Assembly: GCA_024399835.1 (NCBI GenBank)
Contig: JAKSNK010000017.1
Coordinates: 1-39,285, forward strand
DNA length: 39,285 nucleotides
Direction of reading: 5' to 3'
DNA from: Paludibacteraceae bacterium
GTDB taxonomy: Bacteria > Bacteroidota > Bacteroidia > Bacteroidales > Paludibacteraceae
The position numbers and the translations under genes were made by a program. Below, in pieces: positions 12,123-22,488 of the stretch; the stretch's first letter is position 1, and each line of letters opens with the position of its first letter. The notes beneath the pieces were generated by a model, which made no database searches, was not told the DNA's origin, and saw only the letters and a program-made list of their open reading frames with translations.

Positions 12123-13505
12123 TTACAAATCCGTCTTCAAGTCTATCGTAAATGCCCGGTCTGCCTGGTCTCTCACATTGAAAAGGATAGTGCGCTGTGT
12201 GGAGTTATAGACACAAGACCAGTTGGTAACCTGTCCGGGCACCTCAATGCCGTAATTGCCATACTGAAGGACACGCAACGCTTCCTCCTCATCCATAACC
12301 AACGAATAATGACTCATCATATTGTGAGCACGGAACACGCCGCCAAACGCTCTCTGCCAATAGTCCGTATAGAAAGTAGAAGACGGCGTAGGATGATAAT
12401 AATAGTTCTCCATGCTCTTGTATTCGTATGCTATGTTGTGGTTGCCCAAGAACGCCGATTGAGAGCGTGCGTTCTCGTCATAGACATACAGAATATCCGC
12501 CTGACCTTTGGGATTTCCGACTATTTGCACATCCTTGCTCTCATCCCTCCAGTACTCCAGCGTAAGCCACTTTCCGTTTGCATCGGAGAAACACCAATGC
12601 AAATTGGCACTCCGATCAAGAGCAACATAATTGTAAGACTTGAACAGGTCAACCACTTCCTCCACCGTTGTGCACTTGGCGAGGGTCAGATTAGCCAAAG
12701 CAATAAAGTTTGCCTGCTTTTTTCCGGGTATTCTCTGGTCGGTGCCATAAGGACGCGGCGTGGGACTCGGATACGGGTCAATAACGGTACTGTCCTGAGC
12801 TTGGAAATCGGGAAGTTGGTAACAAGTAAGAACCAATCCGGCATCGTTCATGCCATCAACAGTAGAAAGCGGCTGGCGAAGCAGGACATTGAGTTCGATA
12901 TCCTTTCTCAAAAGTACGGTGTCTCCTGCATATTTGTCCAGTATTCCCGAGAATTTTTGCGCGCCGTTCAGGTCTGTCATCATCACGCTCTTGTGCTCGC
13001 CCGGCTTGACATTGTGGTTGAAAACGACAACCATCTCTCCGTAGTCTCCGTCGAAATTACGGCAGTTCAGCATTTCTCCTTTGGTGTTCGTGCAGATAAA
13101 ACCCGAGCAGGATGCAGCGAGATCGGGAAGTTCGCCCTGGGGTACAGGAGTTGAGAAAAGCGCCTTAGAGACTTTGGCTGTCACATTCGCCATGCAGAAC
13201 ACATCAAAATGTTCGCCCCACGGTTGTGTCAGCAGACTTTCCCAATCGACCTTCGCGGTATAGTCCATGTAGTAGATAGGTTTGCCCTTGACATAACGGA
13301 TAGATTTCAAAGTTGCTTCCGAGCCCTCGGGAATACATTCGTCGAATGTAATTTTCGGGTTGGGTATTTCCCTACCGACAGCACGCAATTTTTCAATCGT
13401 GAATCCATCTTTTTTAGGTTCGGTGTTGGCGGGTTCATTCTTTTCTTTGCACCCGGTCAGCGCGACGGCGGCAACAGCCATCAATGCCAAAAACAGTTTA
13501 CGCAT
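12123..13505 (-). CDS. Lipoprotein with C45/NTN-hydrolase-like motif
   Basis: This is a 460-residue lipoprotein: signal peptide with lipobox ALTGC, acylated Cys at residue 19. The segment ASCSGFICTNTKGEMLNCRN followed by FDGDYG resembles the active-site start of linear-amide C-N hydrolases (C45 acyltransferase and choloylglycine/penicillin-acylase group), with C133 as the candidate nucleophile and R149/D152 as the conserved pair. In autoprocessed members this Cys becomes N-terminal; here it is preceded by a pro-region of about 110 residues after the lipid anchor, which would be cut off if processing occurs. The substrate is unknown: an amide or N-acyl compound is likely. It is a single gene with its own promoter at 13567. 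Confidence 0.72.
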   Translation of the reverse strand: MRKLFLALMAVAAVALTGCKEKNEPANTEPKKDGFTIEKLRAVGREIPNPKITFDECIPEGSEATLKSIRYVKGKPIYYMDYTAKVDWESLLTQPWGEHFDVFCMANVTAKVSKALFSTPVPQGELPDLAASCSGFICTNTKGEMLNCRNFDGDYGEMVVVFNHNVKPGEHKSVMMTDLNGAQKFSGILDKYAGDTVLLRKDIELNVLLRQPLSTVDGMNDAGLVLTCYQLPDFQAQDSTVIDPYPSPTPRPYGTDQRIPGKKQANFIALANLTLAKCTTVEEVVDLFKSYNYVALDRSANLHWCFSDANGKWLTLEYWRDESKDVQIVGNPKGQADILYVYDENARSQSAFLGNHNIAYEYKSMENYYYHPTPSSTFYTDYWQRAFGGVFRAHNMMSHYSLVMDEEEALRVLQYGNYGIEVPGQVTNWSCVYNSTQRTILFNVRDQADRAFTIDLKTDL

Positions 13506-13566
13506 AATGTAATTTTGAATTTTGAATTTTGAATTATGAGATTAGCAAGTTTGCATAAATCGGGTA

Positions 13567-13598
13567 CAAAGTTACAACAAAAATTTGGCATACGCAAA
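13567..13598 (-). promoter_or_regulatory. Promoter of the C45-like lipoprotein gene
   Basis: On the minus strand TTTG (13595-13598) and TAACTTTG (13567-13574) are 20 nt apart. The -33 box continues as TTTGCGTATGCCAAA, the same extended element as at the rho promoter. Confidence 0.7.
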
Positions 13599-13632
13599 TA
13601 ATTAGGGCACAAAATAGATTTTTTAATCTATA
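13574..13632. repeat. 59-bp inverted repeat, left copy
   Basis: This segment matches the reverse complement of 20527-20585 with one mismatch in 59 bases. It covers the -33 region of the minus-strand promoter, TTAGGGCAC, and the palindrome ATAGATT-TTTT-AATCTAT (13614-13631). The two copies face outward and enclose the cas12a, CRISPR and ATPase island. Confidence 0.85.
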
Positions 13633-13682
13633 AATCGGCATTTTTACCAATCTCTTAATTCTTAATTCAAAATTCTTAATTC
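13590..13682. repeat. Promoter-associated intergenic repeat, copy 2
   Basis: This has the same element order as 11834-11929: extended -33 element, TTAGGGCAC, palindrome, AAATCGGCATTTTT, then the CTTAATTCTTAATTC block. The order and orientation relative to the downstream minus-strand gene are the same as in copy 1. Confidence 0.75.
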
Positions 13683-13801
13683 CATCTCCCCGGTTCGCCC
13701 TCTCTTAATTCTTAATTCAAAATTCTTAATTTACTCTCCCCAACTCCGTCCTCTAAACTCATGTCTATGTTATTGATTATCAATGTCGCTATCGAACGGT
13801 T

Positions 13802-13823
13802 AAGCAACGGTCAAGCAACGGTC
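13802..13823. repeat. 11-bp tandem pair, left
   Basis: AAGCAACGGTC occurs twice head to tail. A related pair of AAGTGTCGGTC, equal at 8 of 11 positions, lies on the other side of the cas12a locus at 18681-18702 in the same orientation. Confidence 0.7.
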
Positions 13824-13875
13824 AGTATAGGATGAGCGAATGGTGGCGCTCAAAAACCGCCTTTTTTATCTCAAA

Positions 13876-13898
13876 ATTCTTAGCCACTAGGGCACGAT
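13876..13898. repeat. 23-bp repeat, imperfect extra left copy
   Basis: This differs by one base (CCACTAGG in place of CCACAAGG) from the copy at 13910-13932, which lies 34 bp further on in the same orientation. Confidence 0.75.
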
Positions 13899-13909
13899 TG
13901 CAGTGGGCA

Positions 13910-13932
13910 ATTCTTAGCCACAAGGGCACGAT
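13910..13932. repeat. 23-bp inverted repeat flanking cas12a locus, left copy
   Basis: ATTCTTAGCCACAAGG followed by GCACGAT is the exact reverse complement of 18621-18643. Outside the 23 bp, both copies run into CTTAATTC/GAATTAAG low-complexity sequence. The pair encloses the cas12a promoter, the gene and the whole CRISPR array. Confidence 0.85.
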
Positions 13933-13967
13933 TTTTTTCTTAATTCTTAATTCAAAATTAAATAATA

Positions 13968-13999
13968 TTTGCATATATCAAAATTAATCAGTATCTTTG
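13968..13999 (+). promoter_or_regulatory. Probable cas12a-CRISPR promoter
   Basis: TTTG (13968-13971) and TATCTTTG (13992-13999) are 20 nt apart, fitting the Bacteroidota consensus. The 16 bases TTTGCATATATCAAAA are identical to the -33 region of the ATPase promoter at 18905. The transcript would have a leader of about 160 nt before the ATG at 14169. Confidence 0.65.
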
Positions 14000-14168
14000 T
14001 AGGAAAAAATAAGAAAAAAAACGAAAAAAACTACAATGTGACACCAAATTGACACTTTGAAGTAGTAATTTTGCAGTCGAAAAGCATTAATCGCATGATT
14101 GAATGTGTGTGTGCCAGCGAAGCGAGAAAAATGATATACACGATATTGATAATACTAATTGATGCACT

Positions 14169-17100
14169 ATGAAAACAATGACAGATTTGACCGGATTGTA
14201 TCCGCTCAGCAAAACCTTACGATTCGAACTCAAACCTATCGGTAAAACGCTTGAACATATTGAGCGTAAAGGGCTTATCGCCCAAGACGAACAGCGTGCA
14301 GAAGACTATGAGAGAGTAAAAGACCTGATAGATAAATACCACAAAAAGTTTATTTCTCTATGCTTGAACAAATGCAGATTGAAGGTGGAATCGACCGGAG
14401 AATATGATTCGTTGGAAGAATATGTGGAATTTGCAGGCATAGCCAAAAGAACGCAGGAAGAAGAAAATGCGTTTACGAAGGTAAAAGAAATGCTACGCAA
14501 GACGGTAGCGGATTCATTTAAGAAAGACCCTGATCAATTCAAGGAACTCTTCAAGAAAGAAATCATTACCGAACACCTGCCCAATATGTTGCTCACAGAC
14601 GGAAGCGAAGAAGATAAAAAGAAAGTGGAGAGTTTTGCCTTATTTACTTCTTATTTCACTGGCTTCCATCAGAATAGAGAAAACATGTATTCTGCTGAAG
14701 AAAAGTCGACAGCAATAGCGTATCGGTTGATACATCAGAATCTGCCCATGTTTTTGGACAATATCAAGTCGTTTGAAAAAATACAAGCAACCATCGATGG
14801 CAAAGACATGGAAGAACTTGAGAACGCATTTAGGGAATGCTTGAATGTGGAGCATATAGCAGATATGTTCCAATTGGCATATTTTACCGAAATACTGACT
14901 CAGGAGCAGATAGATGTATATAATTATATTATAGGTGGAAAAACCGAAGAAGACGGCACCAAGATAAAGGGAATAAACGAATATGTAAATCTCTACAACC
15001 AGCAGCATAAAGACAGCAGATTGCCTTTGCTCAAACCGCTTTATAAAATGATATTGAGCGACCGCACCACTCTGTCGTGGTTGCCGGAACAATTCAAGAG
15101 CGACGAAGAAATGTTGACGGCTATCAACGAGGCAATCAAAAAGTTGAATGACGAAGTACTCAACACCGCCAATCAAGACAATCTGCAACAATTGCTGAGT
15201 CATCTGTCCGACTATGATACCCGTCATATCTATATAACCAACAATCATTGCCTGACGGACATATCGCAACAAATTTTTGGTCAATATGACCGTTATACTA
15301 CTGCTATCAAAGAAGAAATAAAGAGCAGTTTGAAACCCACCGCCAAGGAGAAAAAAGATCCAGACTTATTGAATGACAGGACAAGAAAACTATTTGATGC
15401 ACGCAAGAGTTTCTCTATAGCCGAACTAAACGAATATGCCCAAGCGGAAGCGAATCAGACCATAGAAGTTTATTTTGCGCAACTGGGCTCCTACGACCGA
15501 AACGGAGAACAACAAATCAGTTTGCTTTCTCGTTTGAATATGGCATATAACGAAGCAAAAGAGGTGTTGGATGGTAAATATACGAATCTCAATCAATCCA
15601 AAGAAGCGACTGAAAAAATCAAGAATCTTCTGGATGCCTACAAAGCCATTCAATTCTTTGCGCAGCCGTTAGCCGGCTCCGGCGATGAAGCGGAAAAAGA
15701 TAACGAGTTTGATGCCAAGTTACGGAATTTGACGAATACATTAAGCGAAGTGATTACGCCTTTGTATGACAAAGTCCGCAATTGGCTGACCCGCAAGCCG
15801 TATTCCACGGAGAAGATTAAGTTGAATTTTGAGAATGCTCAATTGCTTGGCGGATGGGATGTAAACAAAGAACCAGATTGTACAGCCATTTTGTTGCGTA
15901 AGCACAAACAGTATTATCTTGGTATCATGGACAAGAAATCCAATCACTCATTTGATATTGACGAACTGCCAAGCGAGGGCGATTGTTATGAGAAAATCGA
16001 TTATAAATTGCTACCCGGAGCAAATAAGATGTTGCCTAAAGTATTCTTTTCAAAAAGCAGAATAGATGAATTTAACCCGTCAGATGCTATAAAAAAAGCA
16101 TATGAAAAAGGAACACACAAAAAAGGTCCCGATTTTTCTCTTGCAGATTGTCATCGTCTAATCGACTTCTTCAAGGCATCTATCGCCAAACATGAAGACT
16201 GGAAACGCTTCCCCTTCTCTTTCTCGGATACCGGCAGTTATGAAGACATCAACGGATTCTATCAGGAAGTGGAGCAACAAGGATATATGATAGGTTTCCG
16301 CCCTGTATCTGAAGCATATATAAATCAATTGGTGGAAGAAGGAAAATTGTATTTGTTCCAAATTTGGAATAAGGATTTTTCAGAGTACAGCAAGGGACGC
16401 CCCAATATGCACACGATGTATTGGAACATGTTGTTTGACGAGAAGAACCTGGCAGATGTCATCTACAAACTGAACGGACAAGCTGAAGTGTTTTTCCGCC
16501 AAAAAAGTTTGGATATAGCCAAGACCTGTGTTCATGCCGCCCAACAACCCATAAATAATAAAAACAAGAGTAATCAGAAACAACAAAGCACCTTTGATTA
16601 CGATATCATCAAAGACCGCCGTTATACGATGGATAAATTCCAATTCCATGTGCCTATAACGATGAATTTCAAATCAAAGGGGCGTGAAAATATCAATTCG
16701 CAAGTAAGAGAAATCATCCGCAATAACGGCATCCAACATGTAATCGGAATTGACCGCGGAGAGCGCCATCTGCTGTATCTGTCGCTGATTGATTTGAAGG
16801 GCAATATCGTCAAACAGATGACATTGAACGATATCATCAACGAATACAAGGGGAACACCTACGCTACCAACTATAAACAACTGTTGGAATATCGCGAAGG
16901 CGAACGAACCGAAGCACGCAGAAGTTGGCAGACAATCGAAAATATCAAGGAATTGAAAGAAGGTTATTTGAGTCAGGTGGTGCATGTGATAGCCAAGATG
17001 ATGGTGGAATACAACGCCATAGTGGTGCTGGAAGACCTGAATGGAGGTTTCATGCGCGGTCGGCAGAAGATAGAGCGCAATGTGTACGAGCAGTTTGAGA

Positions 17101-17924
17101 AGAAACTGATAGACAAACTCAATTATTATGTAGATAAACAAAAAGAGGCAACCGAAGCGGGCGGAGTACTGCATGCCTTGCAATTGACCAGCAAGTTTGA
17201 GAGTTTCCAGAAATTAGGAAAACAAAGCGGTTGCCTGTTCTATATCCCGGCATGGAATACCAGCAAAATAGACCCCGTTACCGGATTTACCAACCAGTTG
17301 GATACGCGCTATCAAAATGTGGAAAAGGCGTTGCAGTTCTTTGGCAGATTTGACAGTATCCGTTACAACAAAGAAAAAGATTGGTTCGAATTTATGTTGG
17401 ATTACGATAAGTTTACTACCAAAGCAGAAGGAACTCAAACCCGTTGGACCTTATGTACTTACGGAACACGCATCCGCAGTTTCCGCAACGACATCAACAA
17501 ATGGGTTCCCAAGGACGTGGTGCTGACTGAAGAATTCAAACAAGCATTTGCAGCGGCTAATATCGATGTCAACGGCAATTTGAAAGATGCGATATGCAAC
17601 CTGAACGAAAAAGCACATTTGGAGGAACTGATGCATTTGGTAGGTTTGCTGGTTCAATTGCGGAATAGCAAAACGAATACGGAGATAGATTATATGCTTT
17701 CGCCTGTGGCTGACAAGAATGGAGTATTCTATGACAGCAGAACCTGCCCGGACACTTTGCCCAAAGATGCAGACGCTAACGGTGCCTATAATATAGCAAG
17801 AAAAGGTATTTGGGTTATTCGCAAAATCCAAGAAGACCAAACGAATGACAAGGTAGATTTGAAAATCACGAATAAGGAGTGGTTGGCATTCGCCCAACAA
17901 AAACCATATTTGAAACATCTATAA
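14169..17924 (+). CDS. cas12a: CRISPR effector nuclease Cas12a (Cpf1), type V-A
   Basis: This is a 1251-residue RNA-guided DNA endonuclease that also matures its own crRNAs, of normal family length. The N-terminus (LTGLYPLSKTLRFELKPIGK) is the canonical Cas12a opening. By comparison with AsCas12a and FnCas12a, the RuvC residues are D862 (GIDRGERHL), E955 (VVLEDLNGGF) and D1202 (DADANGAYN), and the Nuc residues are R1165 (LRNS) and D1174. PAM contacts are K567 (GWDVNK) and K620 (LPGANKMLPK). Processing residues are H789, K798 and K815, with Y819 in place of the FnCas12a Phe. Nothing appears truncated, so the enzyme should be active, probably with a T-rich PAM. M1 and M4 are both possible starts. 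The stop codon lies inside the first CRISPR repeat. No cas1, cas2 or cas4 is near; the neighbours are core genes and an AAA ATPase. Confidence 0.98.
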   Translation: MKTMTDLTGLYPLSKTLRFELKPIGKTLEHIERKGLIAQDEQRAEDYERVKDLIDKYHKKFISLCLNKCRLKVESTGEYDSLEEYVEFAGIAKRTQEEENAFTKVKEMLRKTVADSFKKDPDQFKELFKKEIITEHLPNMLLTDGSEEDKKKVESFALFTSYFTGFHQNRENMYSAEEKSTAIAYRLIHQNLPMFLDNIKSFEKIQATIDGKDMEELENAFRECLNVEHIADMFQLAYFTEILTQEQIDVYNYIIGGKTEEDGTKIKGINEYVNLYNQQHKDSRLPLLKPLYKMILSDRTTLSWLPEQFKSDEEMLTAINEAIKKLNDEVLNTANQDNLQQLLSHLSDYDTRHIYITNNHCLTDISQQIFGQYDRYTTAIKEEIKSSLKPTAKEKKDPDLLNDRTRKLFDARKSFSIAELNEYAQAEANQTIEVYFAQLGSYDRNGEQQISLLSRLNMAYNEAKEVLDGKYTNLNQSKEATEKIKNLLDAYKAIQFFAQPLAGSGDEAEKDNEFDAKLRNLTNTLSEVITPLYDKVRNWLTRKPYSTEKIKLNFENAQLLGGWDVNKEPDCTAILLRKHKQYYLGIMDKKSNHSFDIDELPSEGDCYEKIDYKLLPGANKMLPKVFFSKSRIDEFNPSDAIKKAYEKGTHKKGPDFSLADCHRLIDFFKASIAKHEDWKRFPFSFSDTGSYEDINGFYQEVEQQGYMIGFRPVSEAYINQLVEEGKLYLFQIWNKDFSEYSKGRPNMHTMYWNMLFDEKNLADVIYKLNGQAEVFFRQKSLDIAKTCVHAAQQPINNKNKSNQKQQSTFDYDIIKDRRYTMDKFQFHVPITMNFKSKGRENINSQVREIIRNNGIQHVIGIDRGERHLLYLSLIDLKGNIVKQMTLNDIINEYKGNTYATNYKQLLEYREGERTEARRSWQTIENIKELKEGYLSQVVHVIAKMMVEYNAIVVLEDLNGGFMRGRQKIERNVYEQFEKKLIDKLNYYVDKQKEATEAGGVLHALQLTSKFESFQKLGKQSGCLFYIPAWNTSKIDPVTGFTNQLDTRYQNVEKALQFFGRFDSIRYNKEKDWFEFMLDYDKFTTKAEGTQTRWTLCTYGTRIRSFRNDINKWVPKDVVLTEEFKQAFAAANIDVNGNLKDAICNLNEKAHLEELMHLVGLLVQLRNSKTNTEIDYMLSPVADKNGVFYDSRTCPDTLPKDADANGAYNIARKGIWVIRKIQEDQTNDKVDLKITNKEWLAFAQQKPYLKHL

Positions 17925-18452
17925 AACATATTTAATTTCTACTATTGTAGATAAGCGTACCATCAGATCAAACAGCTTTTCGTCTATAGAACATATTTAA
18001 TTTCTACTATTGTAGATTTGAAAGGATAAGTCATGAACTATAAGTCTATAGAACATATTTAATTTCTACTATTGTAGATGCCAAAAGCAATGGTATCCCA
18101 GGGCTTAAGTCTATAGAACATATTTAATTTCTACTATTGTAGATAATGAAAACAATGTGACAGTCCAAGAGTTGTCTATAGAACATATTTAATTTCTACT
18201 ATTGTAGATAGAGAGATAGTGCTGTGTGCGCGCATTATAAGTCTACAGAATGTATTTAATTTCTACTATTGTAGATGTCTATGCAATGGCTATCGTCGAA
18301 AATGTCTATAGAACTCATTTAATTTCTACTATTGTAGATATGAATATATTGTGGAACCCTTAAAAAGTCTATAGAATGTATTTAATTTCTACTATTGTAG
18401 ATTGGGTAAAACGATTACATTCCCTTCCTAGTCTATAGAATGTATTTAATTT
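17917..18452 (+). CRISPR. Type V-A CRISPR array, 8 full repeats, 8 spacers, one truncated repeat
   Basis: The 36-bp repeats begin GTCTATAGAACATATTT and end in the Cas12a handle AATTTCTACTATTGTAGAT (stem TCTAC/GTAGA, loop TATT). They lie at 17917-17952, 17982-18017, 18044-18079, 18109-18144, 18174-18209, 18241-18276, 18304-18339 and 18367-18402, with a 22-bp stump at 18431-18452 lacking the handle. Spacers between them are 29, 26, 29, 29, 31, 27, 27 and 28 nt. Repeats 2-5 are identical; repeat 1 differs at positions 1 and 8; repeats 6-8 vary in the first 13 bases, while the handle never changes. The first repeat starts 8 bases before the end of cas12a, so there is no separate leader and expression probably comes from the cas12a promoter. 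Matching promoter-proximal identity to the middle of the array suggests the trailer end is oldest. Confidence 0.98.
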
Positions 18453-18620
18453 AATCTCCGAAGACGAAAAAAAGATAATCTGCAAGGCATAAAAAAGCAT
18501 GAATTGATGTAATGTTTGCCCCAAAAGTTCGTAATCAGAATAGTAGGATATGGAGAATCGGTGAGTTGGTGAATCGGGGAATCGGGTGAGATTGAATTAA
18601 GAATTATGAATTATGAGATA

Positions 18621-18643
18621 ATCGTGCCCTTGTGGCTAAGAAT
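18621..18643. repeat. 23-bp inverted repeat flanking cas12a locus, right copy
   Basis: ATCGTGCCCTTGTGGC followed by TAAGAAT is the exact reverse complement of 13910-13932. It is preceded by GAATTATGAATTATGAG, which corresponds to the low-complexity sequence next to the left copy. Confidence 0.85.
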
Positions 18644-18680
18644 TAAGAGAGACGCGAACACCCATAAAAGAGAGGGCAGG

Positions 18681-18702
18681 AAGTGTCGGTCAAGTGTCGG
18701 TC
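18681..18702. repeat. 11-bp tandem pair, right
   Basis: AAGTGTCGGTC occurs twice head to tail. It resembles the pair at 13802-13823. Confidence 0.7.
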
Positions 18703-18762
18703 AACCCTCGACTATTTGCTTACTCAAAAAGACAACGAAATTGCCGCTTTAAAACCTAAAAT

Positions 18763-18813
18763 TGCTCAACTTGCTTTGTTGTACTTCCGCATACCGGGCT
18801 ACATTTACTGCTC
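18763..18813. repeat. 51-bp direct repeat flanking ATPase gene, left copy
   Basis: This copy matches 20241-20291 at 48 of 51 positions, sharing CTTGCTTTGTTGTACTTCCG in the centre. The two copies lie 141 bp before the ATPase start codon and 15 bp after its stop codon. Confidence 0.85.
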
Positions 18814-18829
18814 CGCTGTATGTTTTTAT

Positions 18830-18890
18830 CACAAACAACCGAACAAAATCGTCTCAAACAACCGAACAAAATCGCCACAAACAACCGAAT
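18830..18890. repeat. 23-bp tandem repeats next to ATPase promoter
   Basis: Two units of 23 bp sharing CAAACAACCGAACAAAATCG (18830-18852 and 18853-18875) are followed by a partial third (18876-18890) that keeps CACAAACAACCGAA. They end 14 bp before the -33 box of the ATPase promoter, so they could be an operator or activator site. Confidence 0.75.
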
Positions 18891-18904
18891 TTTGCAAAAA
18901 AAGA

Positions 18905-18936
18905 TTTGCATATATCAAAAAAAAACAGTACCTTTG
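18905..18936 (+). promoter_or_regulatory. Promoter of the DUF4143 ATPase gene
   Basis: TTTG (18905-18908) and TACCTTTG (18929-18936) are 20 nt apart. Transcription should start near 18943, only about 10 nt before the ATG at 18954, so the mRNA would be almost leaderless. Confidence 0.7.
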
Positions 18937-18953
18937 CACAAAATATCAAAGAT

Positions 18954-20225
18954 ATGAAATATAAACAACGAATAGCAGATAGTCTATTAGAACGAAAACT
19001 ATCAACAAAAGGTGCTGTCCAAATAGAAGGTCCAAAATGGTGTGGTAAGACAACCACTGCTAAGCAAATCGCAAAAAGCGTGCTCAATCTTGGGGATGAC
19101 ACGGTCCTTAAACAAAGTCAACGAATGATGCAGATTGATTCAAAGACATTGCTTGAAGGTAGTACCCCTCGTTTGATAGACGAGTGGCAAACCATTCCTG
19201 CTTTATGGGATAGTGTACGAAGTGAAGTGGATAGCCGTGGTGAATTCGGACAGTTTATTTTAACAGGTTCGTCTGTACTACCCGATGCTAATGAGACCAT
19301 CCATAGTGGAACCGGGCGTTACGCGCATATAAGCATGCGCCCTATGAGTTTATACGAATCTTTAGAGAGTTCAGGTGCAATTAGTCTAACAGATTTATTT
19401 GAAGGCAAACAAATAGAGCCAGTTGCCAACAAACTGGATATTGAAAACATTGCATATCTCTTATGCCGTGGCGGATGGCCACAAGCTACTCTTTTGAAAG
19501 GCAATTTAGCCCTGGATTTGGCCTTTGATTATGTTGATTCACTTGTAACAAAAGATGTTCAGCGAGTGGATGGTGTTAAACGAAGCGCCGACCGAGTACG
19601 CAGATTATTGCGTTCATACGCACGGAATATCTCCCATCAAGTTCCATATAAAACATTCAAAGCGGATATATTAGCAAATGATACGGAAACATTGGATGAA
19701 GATACGGTAGCAGATTATATCCGGGTACTGAAGCAGTTATATGTAATTGAAGATATGGAGGCATGGAACCCGAATCTGCGCAGCAAGGCGGCAATTCGTA
19801 CAACAGACACCAGATATTTTGTAGATCCAAGTATCGGAACAGCAGCGCTTGGGCTCGGTCCACGAGATTTGATAAACGATCTTGAAACATTCGGCTTGTT
19901 ATTTGAGAATATGGCAGTCCGTGACCTACGGGTATATGCAGACGCACTACTGGGGAAAATATACCATTATCGGGATAGTGATGGGTTGGAGTGTGATGCT
20001 GTGCTACATCGCCGTAATGGGACATACGGACTAATAGAAATCAAATTGGGAGGACTGGATGATATTGATAAAGCCGCGGATACATTACAAACTCTTGCGG
20101 GGAAAATCGATACTGATAAAATGAAGGAACCGTCGTTCCTTATGGTCATGACAGCTGTTGGTCCTTATGCATACCGCAGACCTGATGGTGTTTATGTAGT
20201 TCCCATCGGTTGTCTTAGACTGTAG
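18954..20225 (+). CDS. AAA ATPase with DUF4143 (PD-(D/E)XK-like) C-terminus
   Basis: This is a 423-residue protein of the AAA_14/DUF4143 family. It shows Walker A GPKWCGKT (26-33), Walker B PRLIDEWQ (73-79 region), the sensor-like strand FILTGSS (101-107), and a C-terminal segment with D348 (ECDAVL) and IEIKLGG (361-367), which is the D-ExK core of the PD-(D/E)XK fold. Such genes are frequent and multi-copy in Bacteroidales; their role is not settled, and defence or toxin-related roles have been suggested. The start at 18954 is preferred over an ATG 192 nt upstream because the promoter lies between them and the upstream stretch is repeat sequence. The gene is enclosed by 51-bp direct repeats. 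I see no evidence that it works with Cas12a. Confidence 0.87.
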   Translation: MKYKQRIADSLLERKLSTKGAVQIEGPKWCGKTTTAKQIAKSVLNLGDDTVLKQSQRMMQIDSKTLLEGSTPRLIDEWQTIPALWDSVRSEVDSRGEFGQFILTGSSVLPDANETIHSGTGRYAHISMRPMSLYESLESSGAISLTDLFEGKQIEPVANKLDIENIAYLLCRGGWPQATLLKGNLALDLAFDYVDSLVTKDVQRVDGVKRSADRVRRLLRSYARNISHQVPYKTFKADILANDTETLDEDTVADYIRVLKQLYVIEDMEAWNPNLRSKAAIRTTDTRYFVDPSIGTAALGLGPRDLINDLETFGLLFENMAVRDLRVYADALLGKIYHYRDSDGLECDAVLHRRNGTYGLIEIKLGGLDDIDKAADTLQTLAGKIDTDKMKEPSFLMVMTAVGPYAYRRPDGVYVVPIGCLRL

Positions 20226-20240
20226 AACAGTAAGAAAATC

Positions 20241-20291
20241 TGCTAAACTTGCTTTGTTGTACTTCCGCATATCGGACTACATTTACTGCTC
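20241..20291. repeat. 51-bp direct repeat flanking ATPase gene, right copy
   Basis: This is the partner of 18763-18813, with three mismatches in 51. It begins 15 bp after the ATPase stop codon. Confidence 0.85.
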
Positions 20292-20526
20292 AACTTTGTA
20301 TCTTGGGCTACCGTCTTGTGCGTTAGTTGTATATTTCGGCGTTCTGCCTTGTAAAAGGTGTTTGTATATTCGGCACTCCCTTGCCAAAGGCAATTTCTCC
20401 GAATGGTAGTCCTCGTCTTTATTAACATACGCAAGTTTTAGGGCACAAGGTTGGCACCTTTGCATCATCCGTTTTTTTGTATTTCATTATATGCAAGCAT
20501 CTATAAACCGCCAAAAATCGTATGAC

Positions 20527-20585
20527 TATAGATTAAAAAATCTATTTTGTGCCCTATTTATTTGCGTATGCCAAATTTTTGTTGT
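20527..20585. repeat. 59-bp inverted repeat, right copy
   Basis: This is the reverse complement of 13574-13632 with one mismatch. It includes the palindrome ATAGATT-AAAA-AATCTAT (20528-20545), TGCCCTA and the extended -33 element of the rho promoter. Confidence 0.85.
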
Positions 20586-20592
20586 ATATTTG
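20561..20592 (+). promoter_or_regulatory. Promoter of the rho operon
   Basis: TTTG (20561-20564) and TATATTTG (20585-20592) are 20 nt apart. The -33 element reads TTTGCGTATGCCAAA. The leader before the rho ATG would be about 48 nt. Confidence 0.75.
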
Positions 20593-20646
20593 CAGTCGAT
20601 TTGAGGATATTCCTCCTTTTCCCAGAGAAACATACACATTAAATTT

Positions 20647-22488
20647 ATGCAATACGATTCACAGAAATTAGGGCGATTAACGCTCGAAGAACTAAAAAAA
20701 GTGGCAAAAGAATTCGGTATCAAAGTCAGAAACACCAAAAACGAGCAAATGCTCATCTATGAGATTTTAGACGCTCAAGCCGACCAAAAAGCCGAGAAAG
20801 TACAAGCCAAAGAAGACGCTAAAGGTGAAGCCAAAGGCGACCGCAAACGCGAGCGCGTTCGCATGCGCCACACTGCCGAACCGCAAAAAGTCAGCACACA
20901 AAACCTGAAAGCGGAAAAAGTAATCGCTACCGTCGGTTCAGAAAAAGAACAAGTAACCAAAATGCAGGAACAGTTGCGCGAGAACAATCACACTCCCAAC
21001 AAAACCGTCCAAAAAGCACAAGCCGTCAAGTTTGCTCCCGTCAATGCCATTATACCCGACGCTCCTGCCAAAGCAGAAGAGCCGGTTAAAGCGGAAGCGC
21101 CTGCTACAGTAGAAACACCCGCCGCAGCAGAAGTGCCTGCCGAGCATGCACCCAAAGCCCCCAAGGGGAAGAAGAAAAAAGGCGCACAACAGCAGGCACA
21201 AGCACAACAACCACAGCCGGCACAACCTGCACAACAGGCACCGCAAAACCAGCCCGGTCAGCCGGTCAATCAACCTGCCAACCAGCAAACCAATTCCCAA
21301 CCTAATCAGCCGGCACAATCGGCACAACCCAACCAACCCAATCAGCCCAACCAGCCGGAGTTCCGCATTATCAACGGCGGAGGTGTACTGGAAATGGAAA
21401 AAGACGGATACGGATTTTTGCGCCAGCCCAAATACAGTTATGCTTCATCCACGGAGGATGTCTATGTGAATCAGCAGAAGATTCGCCAATACGGTTTGCG
21501 CCCCGGAGACACGGTAGAATGTACGGTTCGCGTGAGCGACAAACCCAACGAGAAAGTTCACCCGTTAGACAAAGTGCTGACCGTCAACGGCATGGACCCC
21601 GAGGAAGCGAAGAAGCGTCCGGCATTTGAGAGTCTGACTCCACTCTTCCCCGACCAGAAGTTCACACTCTGCAAGGGCACGCACGACGACCCGTTGTCGG
21701 TTCGTATCATCGACTTGTTTGCACCCATCGGCAAGGGTCAGCGCGGACTGATAGTTGCACAGCCCAAAACCGGTAAGACCGTACTGCTCAAGCAGATAGC
21801 CAACGCCATTTCCGACAATCACCCGGAGGTGTATATGATGGTACTGCTCATAGACGAGCGTCCCGAAGAAGTGACCGACATGGCACGGAGCGTAAAAGCG
21901 GAAGTGGTGGCTTCCACCTTCGACGAACCGGCAGACAACCATGTCAAAGTAGCCAATATAGTATATGAAAAAGCACGCCGGTTGGTAGAATGCGGCAAGG
22001 ATGTGGTTATCCTACTCGACTCTATCACCCGTTTGGCACGCGCCTACAACACGGTGGCTCCCGCCAGCGGCAAAGTGCTGTCCGGCGGTGTGGAAGCCCA
22101 AGCATTGCACAAGCCCAAGCGCTTCTTCGGAGCGGCGCGTAATATCGAGTTCGGCGGTTCGCTGACCATCATCGCGACGGCACTAACCGAGACCGGCAGC
22201 AAGATGGACGACCTCATCTTTGAGGAATTTAAGGGAACCGGCAACATGGAACTGCAACTTGACCGCAAACTGGCGAACAAGCGCGTTTTCCCTGCCGTAG
22301 ATATACCTGCCTCCAGTACGCGCAGAGACGACCTGTTGTTACCGCCCGAGGTACTGAGCCGCATGTGGCAGATACGCAAGCAATTGAGCGACATGAACGG
22401 CGTAGAAGCCATGGAGCGGCTGAAGACATACATGGAGCGCACCGAAGACAATGACCAGTTCCTACTTGCCGTAAATGGAGAGCGATAA
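20647..22488 (+). CDS. rho: Transcription termination factor Rho with disordered insertion
   Basis: This is a 613-residue hexameric RNA helicase that ends transcription. The Rho_N region is at residues 5-45, the cold-shock-like RNA-binding domain at about 240-315, and the ATPase Walker A AQPKTGKT at 371-378, with [13 protein letters not shown] and the Q/R-loop region [20 protein letters not shown] following. Between Rho_N and the RNA-binding domain is an insertion of about 190 residues: first charged K/A/E-rich, then (about 180-238) almost only Q, P, N, A and S. E. coli Rho, at 419 residues, lacks it. Insertions of this type are known in Bacteroidota; in Bacteroides thetaiotaomicron a disordered Rho region has been reported to drive phase separation. 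It heads a six-gene operon and overlaps aroQ by 14 nt. Confidence 0.97.

Follow-up and report, generated by a model that had tools for sequence, protein, structure and literature searches.

A cas12a gene that ends inside the first repeat of its own CRISPR array: a candidate single-transcript, interference-only type V-A locus

Type V-A clustered regularly interspaced short palindromic repeats (CRISPR) systems, whose effector is Cas12a, usually carry the cas4-cas1-cas2 adaptation module, which the subtype name does not require, and a leader with a promoter before repeat 1; some Cas12a loci without adaptation genes are already known. A single-transcript Cas12a was reportedly engineered by Campa et al. 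in 2019. According to Nety et al. 2023 (PMC10278001), TnpB makes omegaRNA from its own mRNA, and the processing domain is WED for Cas12a and RuvC for TnpB. Here, we describe a cas12a locus in a 39,285-nucleotide (nt) stretch of Paludibacteraceae bacterium DNA (assembly GCA_024399835.1, contig JAKSNK010000017.1, positions 1 to 39,285; hereafter the window), in which cas12a ends inside the first repeat of the array that follows it. The locus resembles type V-A in its effector, CRISPR RNA (crRNA) handle, array orientation and processing residues, and differs from the usual form in lacking cas4-cas1-cas2, in having only an atypical promoter-like motif within cas12a in place of a leader, and in the overlap of the array with the cas12a stop. 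We consider it fairly probable that this is an interference-only type V-A locus whose array forms the 3' end of the cas12a mRNA and is processed by Cas12a itself. Like the engineered version, such a unit would have the nuclease frame and the array on one transcript from which the nuclease cuts the guides, but it is natural and has no Triplex or other sequence between the stop and repeat 1. Like TnpB/omegaRNA, it would draw guide RNA from the effector's own mRNA; unlike it, several spacers would come from an array, and the likeness would be a secondary reversion, not ancestry. It is not an OMEGA system, in which TnpB is paired with one guide scaffold at the end of a transposon: here the effector is Cas12a, followed by an array of 8 repeats. 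Titles and abstract openings of the open literature, a scope mostly outside subscription journals, yielded no paper on a cas12a ending in its own array and none on repeat drift after adaptation loss.

The features of the locus are listed in Table 1. The initial annotation had placed the start of the 36-bp repeat 1 eight bases ahead of the end of cas12a and the stop codon within that repeat, and both coordinates were confirmed (8 nt shared by gene and repeat). It had further read the last two codons and TAA from the repeat; this is fully true of the stop and of the last codon, CTA (Leu), whereas the penultimate codon, CAT (His), takes only two of its three bases from the repeat. The commonest repeat of the array (repeats 2-5) reads CTA TAG in the cas12a frame and gives a stop there too, as had been claimed. 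Repeat 1 differs from repeats 2-5 by G to A at positions 1 and 8, and the latter change turns TAG into TAA.

Table 1. Positions of features of the cas12a locus in the window
Feature	Position	Strand	Remark
Predicted Bacteroidetes-type cas12a promoter, TTG-N20-TATCTTTG	13969..13999	+	motif score 14.75
cas12a	14169..17924	+	1251 aa, uninterrupted frame; TIGR04330, 1482.6 bits
Promoter-like TTG-N19-CATATTTG in the last cas12a codons	17883..17912	+	score 12.75
Array, 8 full repeats and the spacers between them	17917..18402	+	
CRISPR repeat 1	17917..17952	+	shares 8 nt with cas12a end
cas12a stop codon TAA inside repeat 1	17922..17924	+	
crRNA handle of repeat 1, 19 nt	17934..17952	+	same sequence in all 8 repeats
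Truncated terminal repeat (trailer end), ninth, 22 nt	18431..18452	+	

The locus was compared with 80 of 258 cas12a loci, labelled L###. Five were left out (L085, L098, L101, L102 and L107) because the match ended before the gene end or lay near a contig end, and the remaining 75 relatives and the window gave 76 loci. A downstream array was present in 62 of them, the window included, and none was seen in the available DNA of the other 14. Among the 62, the array overlapped the end of cas12a only in the window (-7) and in L109 (-2), from Ruminococcus MAG RUG11824, and it began less than 20 nt past the stop in two more, L073 (+15) and L062 (+19). As the initial annotation had argued, an array that overlaps the cas12a stop leaves no room for a leader or intervening cas genes, and there is no space between effector and guides for a separate terminator. 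For a repeat to supply a stop codon is not unusual. Stops occurred in at least two frames in 54 of 58 repeats, against 72% of shuffled repeats, and the conserved handle supplies one stop per repeat; the second frame had a stop in 58/58 and the third, the one used by the window cas12a, in 25/58. Stops in all three frames were alike in real and shuffled repeats (11/58 and 18%), and the idea that repeat stop codons are a selected safety device is unsupported.

The protein scored above the TIGR04330 cut-off of 300 bits, as a type V-A effector should. D862, E955 and D1202 were invariant across 6 aligned sequences (alignment A1), and H789, K798 and K815 matched H759, K768 and K785 of LbCas12a in an alignment read by hand. 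We take the first three to be the RuvC catalytic residues and the others the crRNA-processing residues; judged from these alignments, the window Cas12a has the residues for DNA cutting and crRNA processing. The full repeats (n=8) are regularly spaced at 62-67 nt, are 36 nt long and end in the UCUAC-loop-GUAGA handle that type V-A requires. The handle lies at the 3' side of each repeat, and therefore the leader end of the array is the cas12a end. A search of Rfam found nothing at gathering score in 13400-20700. The distribution of cas12a is patchy: it was detected in 17/393 genomes from the order (E 0.001; 16 above the cut-off), and in a search of 101 genomes of relatives it was found only in the window's own.

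Most relatives have the layout from which such a junction could arise. Intact cas1 was kept in 47 of the 62 loci with an array, usually as cas4-cas1-cas2 and a leader between cas12a and the array, with the cas4 start within or just past the cas12a stop; the array lay 1910-2104 nt from cas12a in 39 of the 47 and 2532-5257 nt away in 7. Relatives with cas4-cas1-cas2 still between gene and array, which the initial annotation had proposed to look for, were among the closest of the 80 of 258 loci: in L094 (Xylanibacter muris, 74% in the best segment) and L034, L036 and L040 (67-68%), the layout was canonical, cas4 overlapped the cas12a stop, cas1 and cas2 followed, and the array was 1983-2077 nt downstream. 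In L032 (71%), the cas genes were gone and the leader was retained. After the conserved WLxFxQ motif, the window Cas12a has 8 residues (QKPYLKHL), and L094, L034, L036, L040 and L032 have 7 (e.g. QKPYLND). Of the 75 motif-bearing loci, window included, 24 had 7 residues and three were longer than the window (L053 and L082 with 9, L091 with 11); L079 had 13 after a variant motif. None of these longer tails belonged to the nearest kin. A truncated cas12a was ruled out by this comparison, which had also been proposed, since the window tail is one residue longer than those of the nearest relatives. Because most loci keep cas1 and the nearest Cas12a proteins end one residue earlier, the reading of the window as a deletion junction joining the last cas12a codons to repeat 1, and not as a truncated gene, is well supported; the earlier suggestion of such a deletion gains from the ancestral gene order and from partial deletions in relatives. 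L045 ends, like the window, in KH before the final residue, and therefore the joining point may be one or two bases into repeat 1; the breakpoint is fixed only to within several nt. An empty-site comparison through the upstream neighbour gene was uninformative (matches in 5/61 other genomes, best full-length match 42% identical). Three relatives had unusual arrangements: L091 had a lone handle 196 nt past the cas12a stop, ahead of cas4, with the main array after cas2; L104 had handle matches on both sides of the cas12a stop, 32 upstream and 56 downstream; and L066 had cas1 and cas2 upstream, 5.0-6.2 kb before the cas12a stop, with no array seen downstream.

A misjoin of two contig ends at a CRISPR repeat could produce the same picture, the source being a draft genome of 46 contigs and repeats being able to mislead assemblers. 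However, repeat 1 differs at two positions, the bases peculiar to it are next to the end of cas12a, and the join lies mid-contig. The exact 20-nt handle core occurs 8 times in the assembly, always in the cas12a array, with no further exact copy elsewhere, and similar fusions were present in the assemblies of L109, L073 and L062, themselves drafts. We regard an artefact as highly improbable.

Loss of adaptation genes was found repeatedly. Intact cas1 was missing, absent or truncated, in 15 of the 62 loci with an array. Nothing was detected between gene and array in the window, L109, L073, L062, L050, L081, L032, L052 and L097; a cas4 stub remained in L041, L108 and L110, cas4 and cas2 stubs in L033, cas2 in L077, and shortened cas4 and cas1 with cas2 in L047. 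These partial deletions, with the leader retained or gone, represent intermediates. No canonical promoter preceded the array in six of the 15 (window, L109, L073, L062, L050 and L041), called leaderless here. For the Cas12a tree, 4 of 76 rows were excluded for stops or frame breaks (L052, L063, L066 and L094) and 60 rows were labelled. Loss of cas1 required 13 label changes for 14 cas1-less loci, by a method blind to gain versus loss, and the six leaderless loci required 6 changes and fell in six separate lineages. A first count with ten rows had given 9 changes, 8 of them forced by supported branches, with clustering no greater than for shuffled labels. The approximately unbiased test rejected both a clade of the window with L109 and one with L073, which like L062 resemble the window in array position and in having no adaptation genes between and differ in belonging to separate lineages. 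Of 16 additional loci, 8 duplicated earlier ones; L001, L012, L015 and L135 were new and lacked cas1 before the array, with gaps of 489, 604, 384 and 181 nt and none abutting; the other four had cas1 and no array within the available DNA. The window is best explained, as far as gene order can tell, as a deletion product of a recurring kind.

Adaptation genes acting in trans, from the missing part of the genome, could still serve the array. No tblastn match to cas4, cas1 or cas2 was found in the window at E 1e-3, nor a Cas1 match in the window's own genome, which is 85.41% complete and thus leaves some room for one. Cas1 was encoded elsewhere in 4/10 genomes without local adaptation genes (L109, L073, L050 and L052), and both canonical-layout genomes among the 12 other genomes searched also had at least one Cas1. 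However, a leader is lacking, and the difference between repeat 1 and repeats 2-5 speaks against a recent insertion there. In vitro, integration in F. novicida is sensitive to leader positions -3 to -1 and to the first six bases of the repeat (PMC13034035), and these needs weigh against adaptation in trans, which we consider very unlikely.

We propose that a deletion beginning near the cas4 start codon and reaching into the array start removed cas4, cas1, cas2 and the promoter-bearing leader and joined the last cas12a codons to a repeat, which now provides the stop codon. Polymerase leaving cas12a would run into the array, as follows from the sequence, and the array would be the 3' end of the transcript. 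Cas12a would then bind the handle hairpins of its own mRNA, cut before each and free the crRNAs. The first cut is predicted between 17933 and 17934, 9 nt past the cas12a stop, a site that we presume from known V-A processing. The handle hairpin was predicted in the mRNA context, and the whole stretch folded no better than shuffles (z -0.73). After the first cut, the mRNA would keep a 3' untranslated region of 9 nt; with almost none left, the message for the nuclease should be shorter-lived as guides are made. A terminating ribosome reaches, by toeprint distance, about 9 nt past the stop; a ribosome at TAA would cover the cut site, so termination and first-guide cutting should compete. Spacer addition would have ceased, and the repeats would drift except in the handle, still needed for interference. 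In human cells, the signal from a transcript with a reporter and a crRNA excised by AsCas12a dropped when no Triplex protected it, a difference not seen with the processing-deficient AsCas12a H800A (PMC11641575). The locus is likely functional as a single-transcript, interference-only unit.

Repeat drift was counted as changes from each array's consensus, excluding arrays with fewer than three repeats (58/62 arrays used; main array only in L091); repeats were found by handle pattern, which favours conserved handles, but by spacing only one repeat was likely missed in the six leaderless arrays (in L050). In leaderless arrays, the 5' part had 232 changes in 79x17 positions (17.3%) and the handle 8 in 79x19 (0.5%). 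Arrays without cas1 and with a leader had 79 changes in 103x17 (65 from L110) and 1 in 103x19, and arrays with cas1 had 68 in 861x17 (0.46%) and 4 in 861x19 (0.02%). The window itself had 9/136 changes in the 5' part and 0/152 in the handle (Fisher p=0.001, positions taken as independent). The 5' part had drifted by 27% in L109 and 46% in L062, far more than in the window, with handles still within 2%, and L073 had hardly drifted. Spacer acquisition, through copying, appears to keep the 5' part uniform and interference the handle.

The motif TTG-N18..21-TAnnTTTG or similar, at a score of at least 12.75 within 60 nt before repeat 1, was present in 32/46 canonical leaders, 9-13 nt from the repeat in 22 and 21-26 nt in 10; the 14 without it include several non-Bacteroidota. 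All 9 cas1-less loci outside the leaderless class reached this score. Among the six leaderless loci, only the window did, through a weaker CATATTTG copy 4 nt from the repeat. Windows of 60 nt scoring as high numbered 8/519 in cas12a and 28/1266 in the whole window. Full-scoring sites like the predicted cas12a promoter numbered 5 on the window + strand, with a mean of 1.0 in 20 single-base shuffles. One TAGGTTTG motif with TTG at 19 nt, at 17641-17648, falls within cas12a some 270 nt ahead of the array and has the full score of 14.75.

Several points weigh against a self-processed array at the end of the cas12a message. Read-through of the junction, cleavage of the RNA and turnover of the message are all inferred. 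Leader loss was associated with drift at p 5e-5 only with relatedness ignored; among independent pairs, most pairings split 5 or 6 to 0 (p ~0.06 by sign test), and 192 of the 232 leaderless changes came from L109 and L062, with only one from L073. Arrays with cas1 show the same imbalance, 4 against 68, and handle conservation alone thus does not mark fused loci. L050 and L041 (gaps of 88 and 216 nt) were called leaderless from absence of the motif, and therefore the statement that other loci keep it is partly definitional. Exact searches of viral contigs with the initial 20 nt of five spacers out of eight were negative, and matches of the array to phage records were all weak (13 records, best E 0.01). 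Finally, the CATATTTG site with its TTG, 4 nt before repeat 1, and the TAGGTTTG site at 17641 mean that the array may have its own transcript, as in ordinary loci. The earlier claim of an array without a leader holds for the canonical promoter, but the last part of cas12a may itself hold a promoter-like site. The CATATTTG site has the right internal spacing and equals the leaders of L036, L053, L065 and L071 in score. However, its -7 box lacks the first T, and it sits nearer to the repeat than the motif in any of the 32 leaders; in L040, coding sequence gives rise to this motif too, 4/75 relatives reach an equal score close to the end of cas12a, and no equal-scoring site exists in the remaining five leaderless loci. 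Read-through from cas12a would continue regardless, and separate transcripts from an own promoter seem unlikely to us.

The lack of targets for the spacers tested, the altered repeat 1 and the loss of adaptation genes would also fit a dead relic, a system killed by the deletion in which gene and array have not decayed so far. Against this, the 1251-aa frame is intact with its catalytic residues present, and the window's handles are unchanged next to a drifting 5' part, as are, to within 2%, those of the strongly drifted L109 and L062. For L033 and L041, both without cas1, the ratio of nonsynonymous to synonymous substitution rates (dN/dS) was 0.16, a value that may include time preceding the losses. 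We think a relic quite unlikely and keep to a probably functional unit in which Cas12a would cut its guides from its own mRNA.

The best phage match of the array query was MK170447.1 (Methanosarcina virus MetMV) 14832-14885, in 8 pieces at one short place, and therefore it probably reflects the repeat and not the spacers. The exact repeat of the array was absent from viral contigs, in which no phage-borne relative of the locus was confirmed either. A solitary V-A crRNA handle was seen in an unannotated stretch of MK496734.1 (Capybara microvirus Cap1_SP_161, near 2204; L130:401-426), within a longer inverted repeat and with a terminator-like hairpin after it; from its sequence, it looks like an RNA anti-CRISPR (Racr) against Cas12a. 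V-A Racrs have been tested (PMC10651486). A second microvirus, MG945527.1 (Microviridae sp., record flagged unverified; L131:401-432), has a solitary V-A handle-like sequence. In the window, direct repeats of 69 nt (18758-18826 and 20236-20304, 84% identical) flank the DUF4143/AAA_14 ATPase gene directly after the array.

More broadly, we raise as a tentative possibility, somewhat short of an even chance, that loss of the adaptation half and of the leader has recurred in V-A systems and turned them into natural single-transcript units. In these, Cas12a would cut its own mRNA just past the stop and limit its own expression, termination and guide cutting would contend for the same bases, the TnpB/omegaRNA layout would be regained, and a frozen heritable memory would be kept through selection on the handle alone. 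Such loci would be natural counterparts of the hand-built single-transcript Cas12a. They offer a comparative test of the two halves of the V-A repeat, in which the 5' part appears to be kept by spacer acquisition and the 3' part by interference, and they make testable the regulation by Cas12a of its own message and the upkeep of a frozen CRISPR memory.
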